64,000 bases of DNA, from positions 60,711-124,710 of the forward strand of contig JAFGCI010000004.1 of NCBI GenBank assembly GCA_016932735.1. The letters run 5' to 3'. Shown here piece by piece: positions 23,988-32,591 of this stretch. The notes below the pieces were generated by a model. The model was not told where the DNA came from. It saw only the letters and a list, made by a program, of their open reading frames with translations, and ran no database searches. Each line of letters begins with the position of its first letter. The stretch's first letter is position 1. This DNA comes from Candidatus Aenigmatarchaeota archaeon (GTDB lineage: Archaea; Aenigmatarchaeota; Aenigmatarchaeia; QMZP01; QMZT01). Position numbers and translations under genes: made by a program.

Positions 23988-24061
23988 AAAAATCACCTGT
24001 GTTTTAGTATTGTTAATAATATTTATTGAATCCATTTAAGTCTGAACTCCTATACCTTGTT

Positions 24062-26728
24062 ATGCTTGTGCAAATTCTGGACGCGGACTATGTGATGCTC
24101 GAAAACAAGCCATTGTTAAGGATTTACGGCAAGACTGAAAAGGGCGATTCTGCATGCGTTTTCTACAGCGGCTTCATGCCTTATTTTTATGTTGATGAAG
24201 TTCCCGAATGGCTTAAAAAAGATCCTCAGGTTTTTTCTATAGAGCCCGTTGAAAGGGTTTATCCGATGTTCTACCGGACAGATAAAATGAAACTTTTCAA
24301 GGTAACAATTCACGACCCTTCCAGGACACCCGAACTTAGAGACAAGGTCATCGAAGGGGGCGGAACTGCCTATGAAGCTGATATTCTCTTCAAGTACAGA
24401 TTTATGGCAGATGCCGGCATCGGAAGTCTTATGTGGCTCGACATTAAAGGGGCATCGTCTGCTAATACATCGACTGTGCGCACAAAGACCAAGTTCGAAG
24501 TTAAAGGGATAAATATTATGGATAAGGTAGCGAATTCTGATTTCCGGTCTCTTGCATTAGATATAGAATGCGTGGCAGAAAATCAGGGTGAAGTCCCGAC
24601 AGCCGAAAGGGATCCTATAATAATGATATCGCTTGTATTTAGCGAGGAATATAACGGAAAAAAAGAAATGGTCATAAGCTACAGGCCGGGAAGCAACGTG
24701 CAATCATACAATGATGAAAATGGTATGCTCAAAGGCCTGATAGATATCATAAATGATTTTGATCCCGACTTCATAGTCGGTTACAATATAAACAACTTCG
24801 ATCTGCCTTACATAATCGAAAGGATGCAGAGGCTCAAGATACCGGCCATGTTTACACGTGCGACCGATAAGTCTGCGTGGACTAAGAAATTAGCAATGGG
24901 TTATAGGAACAATGTGCTGGGGAGGATTATAGCTGACCCTTTCGCGCTGATAAAAAAAGACTTCTCATTCAAAAGGTATTCACTGGAAAACGTCGCCTCA
25001 GAACTTTTGGGCGAACACAAAGAAGATGTCAAATATTCAGAAATGGAGAAATTGTGGAAAGGCGACCAGAAAGGATATGACCGTCTGGTCTCATACTGCC
25101 TGACGGATGCTCGTCTGGCTATGAGACTTTTCGGGGAGTTCAATCTTCTTGATAAATATATAGGGATATCGCGCATCTGCTGTCTCTTCCTTCAGGACGT
25201 CCTTGATGGAGGAGAAACCCAGAGAATTGAGCATTATCTTATGAGGGAATTCAACAGGAACGGCTACATATTCCCCCTCAAGCCCTCACAGGAGGAAATG
25301 GCTGAAAGGGACAACCAGAGAAAGGTTGGTCTCAAGGGAGGCTTCGTTCTGGACCCAGAGCCGGGGATGCACGAGAATGTCGCTGTCATGGACTTCAAAT
25401 CAATGTATCCGTCCCTTATCAGGACTTATAACATATGCCCTACCACGCTTGTCGGCCCGGACGGCCCGAAATTTACAGAAGATGAAATAAGCAAATCGCC
25501 AGAAGGCGGCAGTTTTGTAAAGCCCGAAATAAGGAAGGGCATAGTTCCTTACATTCTGGAGAACCTGATGAATGAAAGGGCTAACGTGAAAAAACGCCTT
25601 AAGAAAGCAACAAAGGACGGCAATGCTGCTGAGGTCAGGGAACTAAATACCAAACAGCTCGGAATAAAAATTATGGCCAACGCCTTCTATGGGCATATGG
25701 GCTATCCCAGGGCAAGAATATATAATATGGATGTCGCCAATGCTATAACTTCGTGGGGGCGGCAGACCATCCAGAAGACGAAGGATATTATAGAAAAGGA
25801 TTATGGTTATAAGGTCATATACGGCGATACCGATTCAGTGATGGTCGAGCTTGATAAGGTTTTTGACAACAAAAAAATTGCAGAAGTCGGTAATAAAATA
25901 TCAGAGGAGATAACCAAGAACCTCCCCGGCATCATGGAGCTTGAGTTTGAGAAGATTTTCAAAAGGTTCCTTCCATTGGCAAAGAAGAGATATGCGGCAT
26001 GGGCATTTATTCCGAAGGGTGGTGGCGAGTGGGTGGAAAAAATTGATATGAAAGGCATAGAAACCGTCCGCCGTGACTGGTGCGACCTTTCCTCTGAAAC
26101 ACTGAGGAATGTAATTGACATAATACTCAAGGAGAACGACAGGGAAAGAGCCGTCCAGTATTTCCAGAATATAGCCAAGAGCCTGGGGGAAGGCAATATA
26201 CCCATGGACAAACTTGTTGTCACCAAAACCCTGACGAAACGTCCTGAAAGCTATCCTGGTGTCCAGCCGCACGCCGAAGTGGCCAAAAAGATGACCCAGA
26301 GAAATCCCGCCGACGCTCCCAGTGTGGGGGACAGGATAAGCTATGTTATTGTAAAAGGAACCCAGCTGCTTTCCTATAGGGCCGAGGATCCTGAATACGT
26401 GACAGAGAAAGGCCTGCATCTTGATTCAATATATTATATGGAGAATCAGCTTCTCCCTCCGGTCGAAAGGATATTCGAGGCTCTTAACGTAACAAAATCG
26501 GAGCTTATGGGAAAGGGGAAACAAATGAATCTATTCAGCATGATGGGAAAGCAGGCTTCCAAAAAGGCAAAACCGGAAATTCCTGTTGCGGATATAATTG
26601 GATTCTCGTGCGAAGAGTGCGGGAGACCTTACAGGCGGCCTACGTTAACAGGATACTGTGAATGCGGCGGAAAAATACTATTTTCTTCTGCAAAAGGCAA
26701 TGCAGATGTTGTAAAGAATCCTTCTTAA
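24062..26728 (+). CDS. polB: Family B DNA polymerase (no intein)
   Basis: ALDIEC (ExoI), VGYNINNFDLPY, DFKSMYPSLI, KIMANAFYG, YGDTDSVMV. Confidence 0.95.
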   Translation: MLVQILDADYVMLENKPLLRIYGKTEKGDSACVFYSGFMPYFYVDEVPEWLKKDPQVFSIEPVERVYPMFYRTDKMKLFKVTIHDPSRTPELRDKVIEGGGTAYEADILFKYRFMADAGIGSLMWLDIKGASSANTSTVRTKTKFEVKGINIMDKVANSDFRSLALDIECVAENQGEVPTAERDPIIMISLVFSEEYNGKKEMVISYRPGSNVQSYNDENGMLKGLIDIINDFDPDFIVGYNINNFDLPYIIERMQRLKIPAMFTRATDKSAWTKKLAMGYRNNVLGRIIADPFALIKKDFSFKRYSLENVASELLGEHKEDVKYSEMEKLWKGDQKGYDRLVSYCLTDARLAMRLFGEFNLLDKYIGISRICCLFLQDVLDGGETQRIEHYLMREFNRNGYIFPLKPSQEEMAERDNQRKVGLKGGFVLDPEPGMHENVAVMDFKSMYPSLIRTYNICPTTLVGPDGPKFTEDEISKSPEGGSFVKPEIRKGIVPYILENLMNERANVKKRLKKATKDGNAAEVRELNTKQLGIKIMANAFYGHMGYPRARIYNMDVANAITSWGRQTIQKTKDIIEKDYGYKVIYGDTDSVMVELDKVFDNKKIAEVGNKISEEITKNLPGIMELEFEKIFKRFLPLAKKRYAAWAFIPKGGGEWVEKIDMKGIETVRRDWCDLSSETLRNVIDIILKENDRERAVQYFQNIAKSLGEGNIPMDKLVVTKTLTKRPESYPGVQPHAEVAKKMTQRNPADAPSVGDRISYVIVKGTQLLSYRAEDPEYVTEKGLHLDSIYYMENQLLPPVERIFEALNVTKSELMGKGKQMNLFSMMGKQASKKAKPEIPVADIIGFSCEECGRPYRRPTLTGYCECGGKILFSSAKGNADVVKNPS

Positions 26729-26954: not shown

Positions 26955-27581
26955 ATGAAGAAAGATTTTATGATCGGCTATATTTCAGGTGTCATCTGCT
27001 CAAAAGGCTTTGTTATTTACAATAAAAAGGAATCGATTTATACTATTGCCTTTGAAACAGGGAATGAAGAACTTTATAACATATTCACGGAAATGTGGGG
27101 CTCGCTGATGAAAACCGGTTTCAAAACTTACGAAAAGATCTACAAGAAACAGAAACGATTCGTCTTCAGGGTGTATGACGAAAAAACCGTCAGGAGATTT
27201 TTTTACAGATACGGATTCCGGACAGGTTCACATCACTGGAAGATACCAAAAATTGTTTCCGGAAACAAAGAAAGTCTGAGAGGGTTTCTTTCAGGTTTAT
27301 TTGATTCCGGCTCTTATATCAGGTGGAAAATCCGTGAAAGAGGGAAGAAAAAAGAAAAGGTAAGGAATATAAGGATTGTATCGCCTTGCAAAAGGGGGTT
27401 ACTGGCCGTTAAAAACGCACTTACAGAATTCGGTATTTCACCGATGTCGTATTCATCAGGAAAAAATTACTGCCTAGATATTGAAGGTAAAATGAAGCTG
27501 GAACTCTTTGAAATGAGAATCGGTTTCCTTCTGGGAATTAACAAAATAAGATTACAGGAAGCACTTTCATATAAAAAGTGA
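26955..27581 (+). CDS. Free-standing LAGLIDADG-like protein with two degenerate motifs
   Basis: FMIGYISGVICSKG and LRGFLSGLFDSGSYI spaced like a two-motif LAGLIDADG protein. Confidence 0.65.
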   Translation: MKKDFMIGYISGVICSKGFVIYNKKESIYTIAFETGNEELYNIFTEMWGSLMKTGFKTYEKIYKKQKRFVFRVYDEKTVRRFFYRYGFRTGSHHWKIPKIVSGNKESLRGFLSGLFDSGSYIRWKIRERGKKKEKVRNIRIVSPCKRGLLAVKNALTEFGISPMSYSSGKNYCLDIEGKMKLELFEMRIGFLLGINKIRLQEALSYKK

Positions 27582-27605: not shown

Positions 27606-27647
27606 TTTCCAGATGAAGTTAACGACCCCCCTTAATTTTATATGCCC
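27606..27647. repeat. 42-bp direct repeat, copy 2, overlapping the 3' end of the TctA-like gene
   Basis: Identical to 26895..26936; contains the stop codon of the minus-strand gene. Confidence 0.95.
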
Positions 27648-28834
27648 ATATTCATGAAGAAAAGTATGACGGTCAGCATGAAAAACCCCATCATGTAGCT
27701 TCTTCTTATGTTCATCTGGATGCAGAAAATGCCTATGAATACCCCCACCATACAAATGAGAGCCCCGTACAATCCCGTCAGAGCAATGACGAGAACCGAC
27801 ACAATAGCTATAACAATCTTCCCAGCGGTTGCATAATCTATCATGGAAAGCCTGCTTAGGAAAAGCCATCCTATTTTAAGCGTCATGAATCCTGCTACCA
27901 GCGCCGATATTAATGCAACCGGAACTATCAAAATGAACAACCCTGTGTTCATTTCGGTGATTTGTGAAACAAATATAGCGAGACCAGAACGTGTTTTGGA
28001 TATCGTGAACAAGACGACCAGTGTGAATATTATATTGGATGTGTTTATTCCTCCCAGTGCTGAAACGAAGTCCCTCATTTTTGTTTTCATAATCTGGGCG
28101 GAAACCATTCCCGCCTGTGAAGAGCCGACGCCCGGAAGCAGCCCGACCAGCATCCCGCTGAGCCATCCTGTTACAGGCCCTTTAAAACCTATCCGGGAGG
28201 GTTTATTTCTTTTTTGCGGAGGGACCTCGGTTCTTTCCTTCACGCTCAGAATCAAGGTACTGAGACCGAACATTCCCGACAGCGCCGGGAATATCATCTC
28301 CTGTGAAGACGGAAGAGAGAAAACTATGATACCATAAAAACCTGACATTAAGAATATGACAAGAGCCCAGAACCGGTTGATGCCCCTTTCTGACAGCAAC
28401 ATCCAGACCAATATTGCTATGAGCACTAAATGAACATATGATTTTAGAAATTCATAGATAATCGGAGTTATCCATATGAGAACGGGCAAGCTTATAATCA
28501 TCAATAATGTCGATAACACGCCGCCGTATACTGTTAGGTAAAGGGCCTCATACCCTCTTCCTTTCATTAGCATTTTATGACCCGGGAGAACAGAGAGCTC
28601 ACTGCCTTCTTCGGGGGCCCCGAAAATAAGTGAAGGAATGAAGTCAATGAACGTATTGGTGACAGCCACCGATACGACAAATGATATAATTGCATAAATG
28701 CCGAACACTTCCAGAAAGGGTACAAAAGATAACAGTATTATATATATTGTATTTGGGTGGAGGCCGGGGACGAGTCCTGTCAATATACCCACAACAATGC
28801 CAAAAAATATGAAAATTATGATTTCGAAAAACAT
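27638..28834 (-). CDS. TctA-family (DUF112-like) membrane transporter
   Basis: Multi-TM with paired GLVPGLHPNTI and GLLPGVGSSQAG motifs, typical of TctA permeases. Confidence 0.75.
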   Translation of the reverse strand: MFFEIIIFIFFGIVVGILTGLVPGLHPNTIYIILLSFVPFLEVFGIYAIISFVVSVAVTNTFIDFIPSLIFGAPEEGSELSVLPGHKMLMKGRGYEALYLTVYGGVLSTLLMIISLPVLIWITPIIYEFLKSYVHLVLIAILVWMLLSERGINRFWALVIFLMSGFYGIIVFSLPSSQEMIFPALSGMFGLSTLILSVKERTEVPPQKRNKPSRIGFKGPVTGWLSGMLVGLLPGVGSSQAGMVSAQIMKTKMRDFVSALGGINTSNIIFTLVVLFTISKTRSGLAIFVSQITEMNTGLFILIVPVALISALVAGFMTLKIGWLFLSRLSMIDYATAGKIVIAIVSVLVIALTGLYGALICMVGVFIGIFCIQMNIRRSYMMGFFMLTVILFFMNMGI

Positions 28835-28959: not shown

Positions 28960-29676
28960 ATGGATGAGCTCGAAATCGCAAAAGACAATCTTGCCAGAAG
29001 TATTGTGGGGGAGATTGTCCTTTCGGACAAGCCCGAGGCTATACTCAAGAAATGGAGGAACATATTCAATTTCTCCCAGAAGGACGTTGCAGCTTCGCTC
29101 GGTATAACATCGTCGGTTATATCCGACTACGAGTCGGGACGGAGAAAGTCGCCGGGTATAAAGATAATAAAGAAGTATGTAACCGCTCTTATAGAAATGG
29201 ATTTGAAAAAGGGCGGCGATGTCGTAAGAAGCTTCTCGCAGACGGAAAAGAGTTCGACTCTTTCAGAAGCTATCCTTGACATTAAAGAATTCTCTGAAGG
29301 CGTCACTATAAAAGACTTCACGGACAGGATTAACGGTGTCTTTGTAACCAAGGAGAAGTTCGCGGACAGGAAAATCTATGGTTATACAATAATCGATTCT
29401 ATAAAGGCCATATCCGATCTTTCCTTCAACCAGATGCTGAAATTATACGGGACCACGACCCAGAGAGCCATGATATTCACTAAGGTGACAACAGGGAAAA
29501 CCCCAATGGTCGCGATAAAACTGACCAACCTTAATCCCGGGATGGTTGTGCTCCATGGCCTGACGAGCGTTTATGATGTAGCCAAGAATATCGCAGACGC
29601 GGAAGGAATCCCATTGGTTGTATGCAAGCTCGAAAGACCGGAAGATATAGTTGAAGCCCTGAAATATTTTAACTAA
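28960..29676 (+). CDS. Archaeal transcriptional regulator with XRE-type HTH
   Basis: RNIFNFSQKDVAASLGITSSVISDYESGRRKSPG helix-turn-helix. Confidence 0.85.
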   Translation: MDELEIAKDNLARSIVGEIVLSDKPEAILKKWRNIFNFSQKDVAASLGITSSVISDYESGRRKSPGIKIIKKYVTALIEMDLKKGGDVVRSFSQTEKSSTLSEAILDIKEFSEGVTIKDFTDRINGVFVTKEKFADRKIYGYTIIDSIKAISDLSFNQMLKLYGTTTQRAMIFTKVTTGKTPMVAIKLTNLNPGMVVLHGLTSVYDVAKNIADAEGIPLVVCKLERPEDIVEALKYFN

Positions 29677-30349
29677 CGTTTTTTGTTTCACAGGACACTT
29701 TCCCATTTTTGTTTATTTCTGCTATTCCATATTTGCCCTGAAAGACCGGCCCGGGATAAAAAAGAGTGGTGTCTCCTATCTTATCGTCGCCGTCTGATTC
29801 ATGTATATGCGCGGAGACCGCCAATACCGGCCTCGTCCTCTCTATAAAATTCCTTATGTTTCTGGATCCTACATGTTTTTTATCTGTCACCATATCAAGT
29901 TTGGTGTTGTAGGGCGGGTTGTGTACAACAAGAATGAATTTTTCGTTGTTCATTTCCTTATATGTCTCGTTTATGTATTTTTTTGTTTCCTCTTCTGTAG
30001 GTTCAAACCTGGTGTCGAACGGCGTCATCGCACCGCCCCATCCCATTATAGGTAACCCGTCTATGATTTTGGAATCTGCATGTATGTTGATACCGTAATC
30101 CTTAAAAATCTCCATGATGCCGTAAGGGTCTTGGTTTCCGGGGACAGCGAAGACTGGTTTTTTTGAAGACATCATCCGGCATATGACTATCTCCGCTATT
30201 TCAAGCTGTGTAAACCCGTCGGGTATGTCGTGCATATCTGTAAAATCCCCCGGCGCTATTATGGCATCGTATTTTCCCTTCTCCTTTTTCATTATCTGCG
30301 AAAGCTTCAGAAAATCGCCGTGAACGTCTGCCAAGATAAGGAATTTCAT
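29669..30349 (-). CDS. Metallophosphoesterase
   Basis: LILADVHGD, IAPGDFTD, VPGNQDPYG, VVHNPP, SAHIHES. Confidence 0.85.
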   Translation of the reverse strand: MKFLILADVHGDFLKLSQIMKKEKGKYDAIIAPGDFTDMHDIPDGFTQLEIAEIVICRMMSSKKPVFAVPGNQDPYGIMEIFKDYGINIHADSKIIDGLPIMGWGGAMTPFDTRFEPTEEETKKYINETYKEMNNEKFILVVHNPPYNTKLDMVTDKKHVGSRNIRNFIERTRPVLAVSAHIHESDGDDKIGDTTLFYPGPVFQGKYGIAEINKNGKVSCETKNVS

Positions 30350-30379: not shown

Positions 30380-31345
30380 TCAGAAACCGCTCTTCCCCAG
30401 CTTGATTTTATCCTCGAGTCCCGTCGATATTATTGTAACGCTCTTGTAGTTTGTTCTGGTTTTCTCTCCGGCAGCGGAAGATACAACAAACAGGTCGGGG
30501 ACCTCCTTAATTATCAGGAATGAGGGTATCGTGTTTTCCTCTGTTCTTATGGACCTCTTTCTTAAAAAATTTATAAGCTTTCCTTTATCCAAACGATCAT
30601 TTGTCCTGTAAAACAATATTTTCATCTCTTCTTTTCCCTTTCTCACAGAAAAAAGAGAAGCGTTCTTCACTTTTATCTTCTTGCCTTCTATGTCTATACT
30701 ATCAGATTTCGAAAAATCAAACGATATTTCAGCTGATATTATTTTTTGTATATTATCCAGCGGTATATCCGGTAAAATCACGTCTTCAGCGAACATGGAA
30801 TTGTTTTTTATAAGGCCGCTTACTGCGACAACGTCATCGTTTTCTATATCGCCGTTCCCCGAATAAATGACATTCAGGGCTCCCGTCTCGTCCTCTATTG
30901 TGAGGCCGTTGTCCGTTTTCTGGCTGATGATACCGATGACGGATACCCTGTCTTTGTTATTTTCAGTTTTGTTTATCGATAGGGAAGTTGTCCTTTCAGA
31001 AAGAATGTCTCTTACCTCGTTGTATTTTTTATTGTAGACAGAAACAATATCCATTACATTTATCTTCTTTTTATCTATTTCTTTCAGTTCGCCCAGGACC
31101 TTTATTTCTATATCGCTTCCTTCTTCCGGCTGCTTCGGTTTTATATGGTCTCCGGGGGTCGTGGTCCCTCTTTCGGCTCCGCCCTTTGATAAGGCCACGT
31201 TTCCGTTGTTTGTAAGGCCACGTTTCTCTCTCAGTTTTTCTTCTAAAAAGTCCTTATGATTCTTCTTTTCCAGTGCGATGAACTCCTCCGGTTTGAGCAG
31301 TATGTCGTTCTGCAAAAAAAGTTTGATAACGGACTCTTCGCTCAT
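30380..31345 (-). CDS. DNA polymerase D small-subunit (DP1)-like protein with eroded phosphodiesterase domain
   Basis: N-term SVIKLFLQNDILLKPEEF; OB fold VSVIGIISQKTDNGLTIEDETGALNVIYS; AEDVILPDIPL; C-term EVPDLFVVSSAAGEKTRTNYKSVTIISTG. Lies directly downstream of cdc6. Confidence 0.72.
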   Translation of the reverse strand: MSEESVIKLFLQNDILLKPEEFIALEKKNHKDFLEEKLREKRGLTNNGNVALSKGGAERGTTTPGDHIKPKQPEEGSDIEIKVLGELKEIDKKKINVMDIVSVYNKKYNEVRDILSERTTSLSINKTENNKDRVSVIGIISQKTDNGLTIEDETGALNVIYSGNGDIENDDVVAVSGLIKNNSMFAEDVILPDIPLDNIQKIISAEISFDFSKSDSIDIEGKKIKVKNASLFSVRKGKEEMKILFYRTNDRLDKGKLINFLRKRSIRTEENTIPSFLIIKEVPDLFVVSSAAGEKTRTNYKSVTIISTGLEDKIKLGKSGF

Positions 31346-31367: not shown

Positions 31368-32591
31368 TTATATGAATTCGTTCTTCATGTGTTGTCTTAT
31401 TTTTTCCATGACACTATCTGAAAGGTTCATCGATACTTCCCGCGTCCTCCCATACCTGCCCTTTGATATGACTTTGGCGTTTATTATTCCTAACATGTCA
31501 AGTTCTGATATGAGGTCTGTCACCCTTCTCTGTGTAAGTTCGCTGATGAAGTTTTCCTTACACTTCTTTATGTAAAGATCGTACACGTCTCCTGTCTGTA
31601 TGTTCTCCGCTCCCTTATCTACAAGCTCCACAACAGACTGGAGAACTGCTTTTGATTGTTTTGGTTGGGTTTTTACTATTTCCATTATTTTATCTTTATC
31701 CAGTTTCTTCTCCGCGTCAATCACATCTCTCTCTTCGATGTTTGTTCTTCCCTCTCTTTCTGCTATCTCCCCAGACACTCTTAGAAGATCGAGAGCCTTC
31801 CTGACGTCGCCGTGCTCCTGCGCCGCCAGGGCCGAGCATTTAGCAATTATTGATTTAGAAACCGCTCCGCCGTTGAATGCAAGATTGACCCTTTCCGTTA
31901 AGATATCGTTCAGCTGCATTGCATTGTAAGGGGGGAATATCATCTCCTCCTCAGAAAGTGTCGACTTGACTCTCGGGTCTATCTCGTTGATGAAAGAAAT
32001 CTTGTTGGATATCCCGACAAGCGTTATCATGCTGTTCTTTATCTCCTGGTTAATCCTGGTCAGATTATAGAGGACACCGTCGCCAACCTTCTCGACAAGA
32101 GCGTCTATCTCATCCAGCACGAGTATTATATTGTGTTTCTCTTTCTCCATTATTTCATAGAACATCCTGTAAAGCTTGTCTGTTGGGAGGCCCGTACAGG
32201 GGATATCCACATCAAAAAAGGACAGTATTTGCGAGAGGAGCCGGTATTCTGTGTCGCTTACCTTTCTCATCTTACAGTTTATGTATATTGTTTTTATCTT
32301 GTTGTTCATGTTACGTGTTGCTGTCTCGCCCAGAACATCGAGGACGTGAGCAACGCACAGCGTCTTTCCCGTTCCGGTCTTCCCATAAACAAAAACGTTT
32401 GAGGGCTTTTCTCCCCTTAATATAGGAGCCATTATCATGCCGAGATGCCTTATGTGCTCCTCCCTGTGTGGTATGTTCAGAGGTGTAAATTGTATAAGAA
32501 GTGTTGTCTTATCAACGAATATTGGCTTTTGTGTCATATAGCTATTGAATATATCATTCAGATTTGATTGCCCTGCCATCTCTAACCCCAT
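31368..32591 (-). CDS. cdc6: Orc1/Cdc6 replication initiator
   Basis: FVYGKTGTGKTLCVAHVL (Walker A), ILVLDEIDALVEKVGDGVLYNLTRIN, C-terminal winged helix. Confidence 0.93.
   Translation of the reverse strand: MGLEMAGQSNLNDIFNSYMTQKPIFVDKTTLLIQFTPLNIPHREEHIRHLGMIMAPILRGEKPSNVFVYGKTGTGKTLCVAHVLDVLGETATRNMNNKIKTIYINCKMRKVSDTEYRLLSQILSFFDVDIPCTGLPTDKLYRMFYEIMEKEKHNIILVLDEIDALVEKVGDGVLYNLTRINQEIKNSMITLVGISNKISFINEIDPRVKSTLSEEEMIFPPYNAMQLNDILTERVNLAFNGGAVSKSIIAKCSALAAQEHGDVRKALDLLRVSGEIAEREGRTNIEERDVIDAEKKLDKDKIMEIVKTQPKQSKAVLQSVVELVDKGAENIQTGDVYDLYIKKCKENFISELTQRRVTDLISELDMLGIINAKVISKGRYGRTREVSMNLSDSVMEKIRQHMKNEFI

Follow-up and report, generated by a model that had tools for sequence, protein, structure and literature searches.

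The window analysed here, a stretch of 64,000 nucleotides from a Candidatus Aenigmatarchaeota genome (contig JAFGCI010000004.1), encodes a degenerate small subunit (DP1) of the DNA polymerase PolD that has very probably been kept as a non-catalytic B-subunit of a B-family replicase. Judged from its sequence this short DP1 is exonuclease-dead, with the five-motif 3'-5' exonuclease site gone, and its probable catalytic partner is a B-family polymerase (PolB) encoded in the same window (Table 1).

Table 1. Replication-related features of the window, with positions counted from its first nucleotide.
Feature	Position	Strand	Remarks
Short DP1-like protein, exonuclease-dead homologue of the PolD small subunit (predicted)	30380..31345	-	321 aa, ATG start, intact ORF
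N-terminal helical domain, residues 1-45 of short DP1	31211..31345	-	AF2 helices 3-12, 19-27, 30-41
OB-fold core, residues ~133-190 of short DP1	30776..30949	-	AF2 strands 133-190; matches DP1 OB region in 6knb/5ihe
Phosphodiesterase (PDE) remnant, residues ~200-321 of short DP1	30383..30748	-	C-terminal beta-strand half of the PDE domain; metal ligands gone
Orc1/Cdc6 origin-binding protein	31368..32591	-	Directly upstream of short DP1, 22-bp gap
Calcineurin-like metallophosphoesterase, free-standing	29669..30349	-	Adjoins DP1; conserved cluster neighbour; Pfam Metallophos 2e-17
PolB, ~890-900 aa, probable catalytic partner	24026..26728	+	ExoI DIE, ExoII, ExoIII, motifs A and C intact
PolB C-terminal zinc finger, homologous to DP2 zinc finger III	26597..26701	+	Cys 862, 865, 878, 880
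Possible PCNA-binding (PIP-like) motif QMNLFSMM	26522..26545	+	Just before the PolB zinc finger; PIP assignment putative

Homology and fold of the short DP1

The original prediction described the N-terminus, OB fold and 'PDIPL' linker of the protein as DP1-like, and this is borne out by the NCBIfam PolD small-subunit model NF003118, which matches residues 2-201 with E=3.4e-22 (model positions 4-220 of 481) and is also matched by all 21 members of the short-DP1 alignment. Both the PD(I/V)P linker and the DP1 N-terminal/OB region are present, and the OB fold is the best conserved part of the protein. Beyond residue 201 the single sequence has no model match; likewise a single-sequence phmmer search against the PDB returned no match and a single-protein scan of the named genomes returned no relatives, and in both cases alignment-based searches then succeeded. 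A profile built from 21 orthologues (the window protein and 20 others) matches the solved DP1 6knb in two stretches, the OB region and the C-terminus (9.8e-17 overall), and hhalign aligns it end to end with active DP1s from family f10, which belongs to the same class (99.7%, E=5.3e-27). Because the profile covers the C-terminus of solved DP1s as well as the full length of active ones, the C-terminal resemblance to DP1, previously seen only by eye, reflects real homology.

An AF2 model of the short DP1 is predicted with good confidence (pLDDT 88.6, pTM 0.76), and a Foldseek search with it returns Pyrococcus DP1 (5ihe_B) first, at 1.4e-10, followed by the B-subunits of Pol alpha, epsilon and delta, a ranking that supports the parallel to inactivated eukaryotic B-subunits drawn earlier. 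The TM-scores are moderate (~0.5), which is expected because half a domain is absent. Profile and model comparisons with solved DP1s thus agree that the homology is specific to DP1, and a generic OB fold only was rejected as an explanation, since the PDE remnant alone matches DP1 in the second 6knb stretch. Separate C-terminal matches of the remnant are found in f10 genomes, down to 2e-16.

Loss of the phosphodiesterase active site

An intact reference DP1 of the same class is 472 aa long and carries the motifs SDLH, AGD, GNHD, YHG and GHLH, so that the window protein is indeed much shorter than DP1, as had been remarked, with ~125 residues after the linker compared to 266. The metal-binding blocks were said to be absent or replaced, and the alignment gives the particulars: a deletion starts soon after the PDIPL linker and runs through motif III, such that SDLH, AGD and GNHD are absent, the His of motif IV is changed to Arg, and SSAAG stands at motif V where intact DP1 has GHLH. 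At most one of the eight catalytic (ligand) residues remains (0-1/8). A longer relative, L152 (384 aa, 7/8 catalytic residues), has an AF2 model that retains the strand-helix-strand-helix half of the PDE domain and is a much better match to DP1 than is the window protein (E=4e-27, TM 0.69); on the predicted structures, this half is the part absent from the window DP1. The proposal that a structural role has been kept without exonuclease activity is supported.

DP1 and DP2 across the genome and phylum

The expected partner, the PolD catalytic subunit DP2, did not materialise. The window's own genome (1.18 Mb, 90.6% complete) contains one DP1 homologue, and neither DP2 nor a second, full-length DP1 was found in it; the DP2 model matches only a zinc-finger fragment at the end of the PolB, which had previously gone unnoticed and is the likely partner instead. 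DP1 homologues are present in 134 of 156 Aenigmatarchaeota genomes, nearly all without stops, and DP2 is present in ten, all of family f10, and was not found in the other 146. In most non-f10 relatives with a match to the DP2 model, the match is a short zinc-finger stretch at the end of a ~900-aa ORF. All eight catalytic residues are present in two DP1s of family f10. One f10 locus (L105:7680-10223, genome G058) encodes an active-type DP1 of 847 aa with an intein directly after AGDL of PDE motif II, and the intein contains Hint, intein splicing and LAGLIDADG domains.

The search of relatives for the same short form was productive, with 65 short DP1s identified including the window's own (267-401 aa, median 335). 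Genome G034 has two short DP1 genes (C1:458646-459611 and C1:706015-706941), one beside PolB and the other beside a partial orc1. Among the PolB-linked DP1s (n=66, window included), none has all eight catalytic residues, and in every one the GNHD Asn, the GNHD His or both are gone; 12 retain four to seven catalytic residues and 54 have two or fewer. In a quick PolB tree rooted at its midpoint, the relic DP1 forms fall into two clades with good support, both of which also contain fully eroded forms, and DP1 erosion therefore occurred several times. The supported forks suggest at least ~5 losses, as a reading of the tree rather than a formal test, and a plausible order of change is a swap of partner, then loss of motif III, and then repeated erosion and deletion.

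PolB and its zinc finger

The PolB C-terminus (CEECGRPYRRPTLTGYCECGGKILFS) aligns with the DP2 zinc finger, and its four zinc-finger cysteines are invariant in 20 orthologues, as is Gln833 of the QMNLFSMM motif. The intact exonuclease motifs read DIE, YNxxxFDxPY and YxxxD. The best PDB match is human Pol delta (E=1.6e-170), narrowly above archaeal PolBs, and the Pol delta alignment begins at the N-terminal region, whereas the archaeal PolB alignments do not; the Pol delta match is consistent with assignment to group B6. The PolB examined from one genome (G154) of f10, a family that keeps PolD, is 771 aa long with no zinc finger at its end. The zinc-finger domain of the window PolB is short and seems to be without the helical bundle through which DP2 and eukaryotic polymerases make a further contact with the small subunit; DP1 may therefore bind it more weakly or differently.

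PolB relatives in the named genomes are nearly all from Candidatus Aenigmatarchaeota, and one scan of viral contigs found none. The closest relative (73%), L113 (JAADIF010000054.1), is deposited as Micrarchaeota, but in the PolB tree it falls among the Aenigmatarchaeota; the assembly is probably misnamed. The only other PolB found in the window's own genome has degraded catalytic motifs (see below).

Gene neighbourhood and alternative explanations

Among the named genomes orc1 immediately precedes DP1, in the same orientation, at every locus (55/55). PolB is within 5 kb of DP1 at 68 of the 70 loci where both were seen, and at 39 it is the immediate same-strand neighbour, these loci having been fetched with PolB as bait and the distances being conditional on a 10-kb flank. 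In the window PolB is 3.7 kb from DP1 on the opposite strand, and the two share no operon. Other conserved neighbours of the replication cluster are an HTH regulator (window 28960-29676) and a TctA-family membrane protein (window 27638-28834), and a LAGLIDADG-domain ORF (window 26955-27581) lies directly downstream of PolB, with homologues that adjoin PolB in several relatives.

The adjacency of orc1 is stricter than that of PolB and the OB fold is the part of the short DP1 that is best kept, as would suit a protein that has left the polymerase to become a separate OB-fold ssDNA-binding or Orc1-associated protein, hence its place behind orc1. We consider this unlikely, as the PDE remnant also retains conserved positions (L261, R264, P283 and Y300) and the short DP1 is found together with a PolB that carries exactly the element of DP2 to which DP1 binds. 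Moreover, orc1 beside DP1 is an old gene order in archaea, and the adjacency therefore says little about binding. It is very improbable that the exonuclease has simply moved, with the neighbouring metallophosphoesterase acting in trans as the PDE of the truncated DP1: its Metallophos domain is intact and it adjoins DP1 in the window's family and is near the cluster in many others, but it matches generic YfcE-like phosphoesterases rather than DP1, it is also near longer DP1 relics (e.g. L155 and L165), and the exonuclease motifs of PolB are already intact. The same gene was considered as the displaced PDE domain of DP1 itself, which present evidence does not support.

Strong divergence (22-32% identity to relatives) and a genome that is ~91% complete leave some room for a decaying pseudogene, or for a truncated copy accompanied by a functional PolD that the assembly lacks, and we regard the chance of either as minimal. 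Both are opposed by the intact frame, the confident fold, the persistence of a homologue, nearly always without stops, in 134/156 genomes of the phylum, and the failure to find DP2 in 146/156. A sequencing frameshift or pseudogene was rejected, the frame being intact and conserved phylum-wide.

A probable non-catalytic subunit for PolB

In archaeal PolD, DP2 zinc finger III docks at the DP1 OB/PDE interface, and this site also serves in eukaryotic polymerases (Raia et al. 2019, PMC6355029). On the favoured reading, DP2 was lost in this lineage and its place taken by a PolB with a DP2-type C-terminal zinc finger, and the short DP1 most likely docks this finger at the groove between the OB fold and PDE remnant, in the manner of DP1-DP2 and of eukaryotic B-subunits with Pol alpha and epsilon. 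Docked there, it may link the polymerase to other replication proteins at the fork. Proofreading would have passed to the exonuclease domain of PolB, relaxing selection on the DP1 phosphodiesterase, whose metal site would then have decayed, with half of the PDE domain deleted in many lineages.

The window DP1 has the N-terminal region, OB fold, PDIPL linker and C-terminal PDE half in common with DP1 of Pyrococcus abyssi (5ihe) and Thermococcus (6knb), from which it differs in the deletion of motifs I-III, replacement of motifs IV-V and lack of a DP2 partner. The replicative polymerases of eukaryotes are regarded as chimeric, with a core from PolB, a zinc-binding tail derived from PolD and a DP1 that has been inactivated. 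Their B-subunits POLA2, POLD2 and POLE2 descend from DP1, are inactive and are bound to a PolB whose C-terminal domain binds zinc; they retain a full-size inactive PDE domain, whereas half of it is gone from the window DP1, and the window PolB, unlike eukaryotic polymerases, has a single zinc finger and lacks the second (CysA) motif. Since the probable partner is a PolB with a DP2-type zinc finger, the likeness to eukaryotic polymerases would span the whole holoenzyme plan.

Aenigmarchaeota with an inactive DP1, and with DP2 absent in most genomes, have been reported by Kazlauskas et al. 2020 (PMC7544198), together with B6 PolBs (B6-aenigma1) that have one DP2-like zinc finger; the authors proposed that both polymerisation and proofreading were taken over by PolB, an origin that eukaryotic polymerases may have in common. 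On the main text of that paper, the window DP1/PolB is a further case of the kind described, resembling the inactive DP1/B6-aenigma1 PolB of the Aenigma_GB_GCA_002789635 type in phylum, inactive DP1 and missing DP2, and in a PolB that has an exonuclease of its own and a single DP2-like zinc finger. The inactivation is reported in that main text, with no mention there of half-PDE deletion, gene linkage or a graded series; relative to it, the truncation of the PDE domain to half, the graded and repeated erosion and the conserved gene linkage are apparently, if provisionally, new. Among the open-access papers searched, none after 2020 was found on the inactive DP1/zinc-finger PolB pair.

A whole archaeal phylum has the same combination as eukaryotic polymerases, and since intermediates are still visible, the order of partner swap, loss of small-subunit proofreading and domain erosion is traceable. 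Tentatively, and with somewhat more doubt than conviction, we suggest that Aenigmatarchaeota harbour a living series of steps from PolD to a eukaryote-like PolB holoenzyme, in which intact PolD (in one family), inactive near-complete relics (4-7/8 catalytic residues) and half-PDE minimal B-subunits coexist, the last having arisen several times in separate lineages, following one exchange of DP2 for a zinc-finger PolB. In this genus, where the second PolB seems to have been inactivated as well, one could picture a replicase that combines an active PolB with a dead PolB and a dead exonuclease subunit, after the pattern of Pol epsilon. The half-size PDE domain suggests how little of DP1 suffices as a polymerase scaffold, and the putative DP1/PolB complex is open to testing with recombinant proteins.

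A second PolB with degraded motifs

The second PolB of the genome (G000:C8:23986-26490; locus L195:4984-7491, minus strand) is full-length at 835 aa and has lost residues of ExoI, motif A and motif C (DIE, D, and DTDS to DSYS). A similar loss is seen in the genus mate G001, and the residues are kept in 18 aligned orthologues from other genera, and the alignment suggests that a retained polymerase has been inactivated at the level of the genus.
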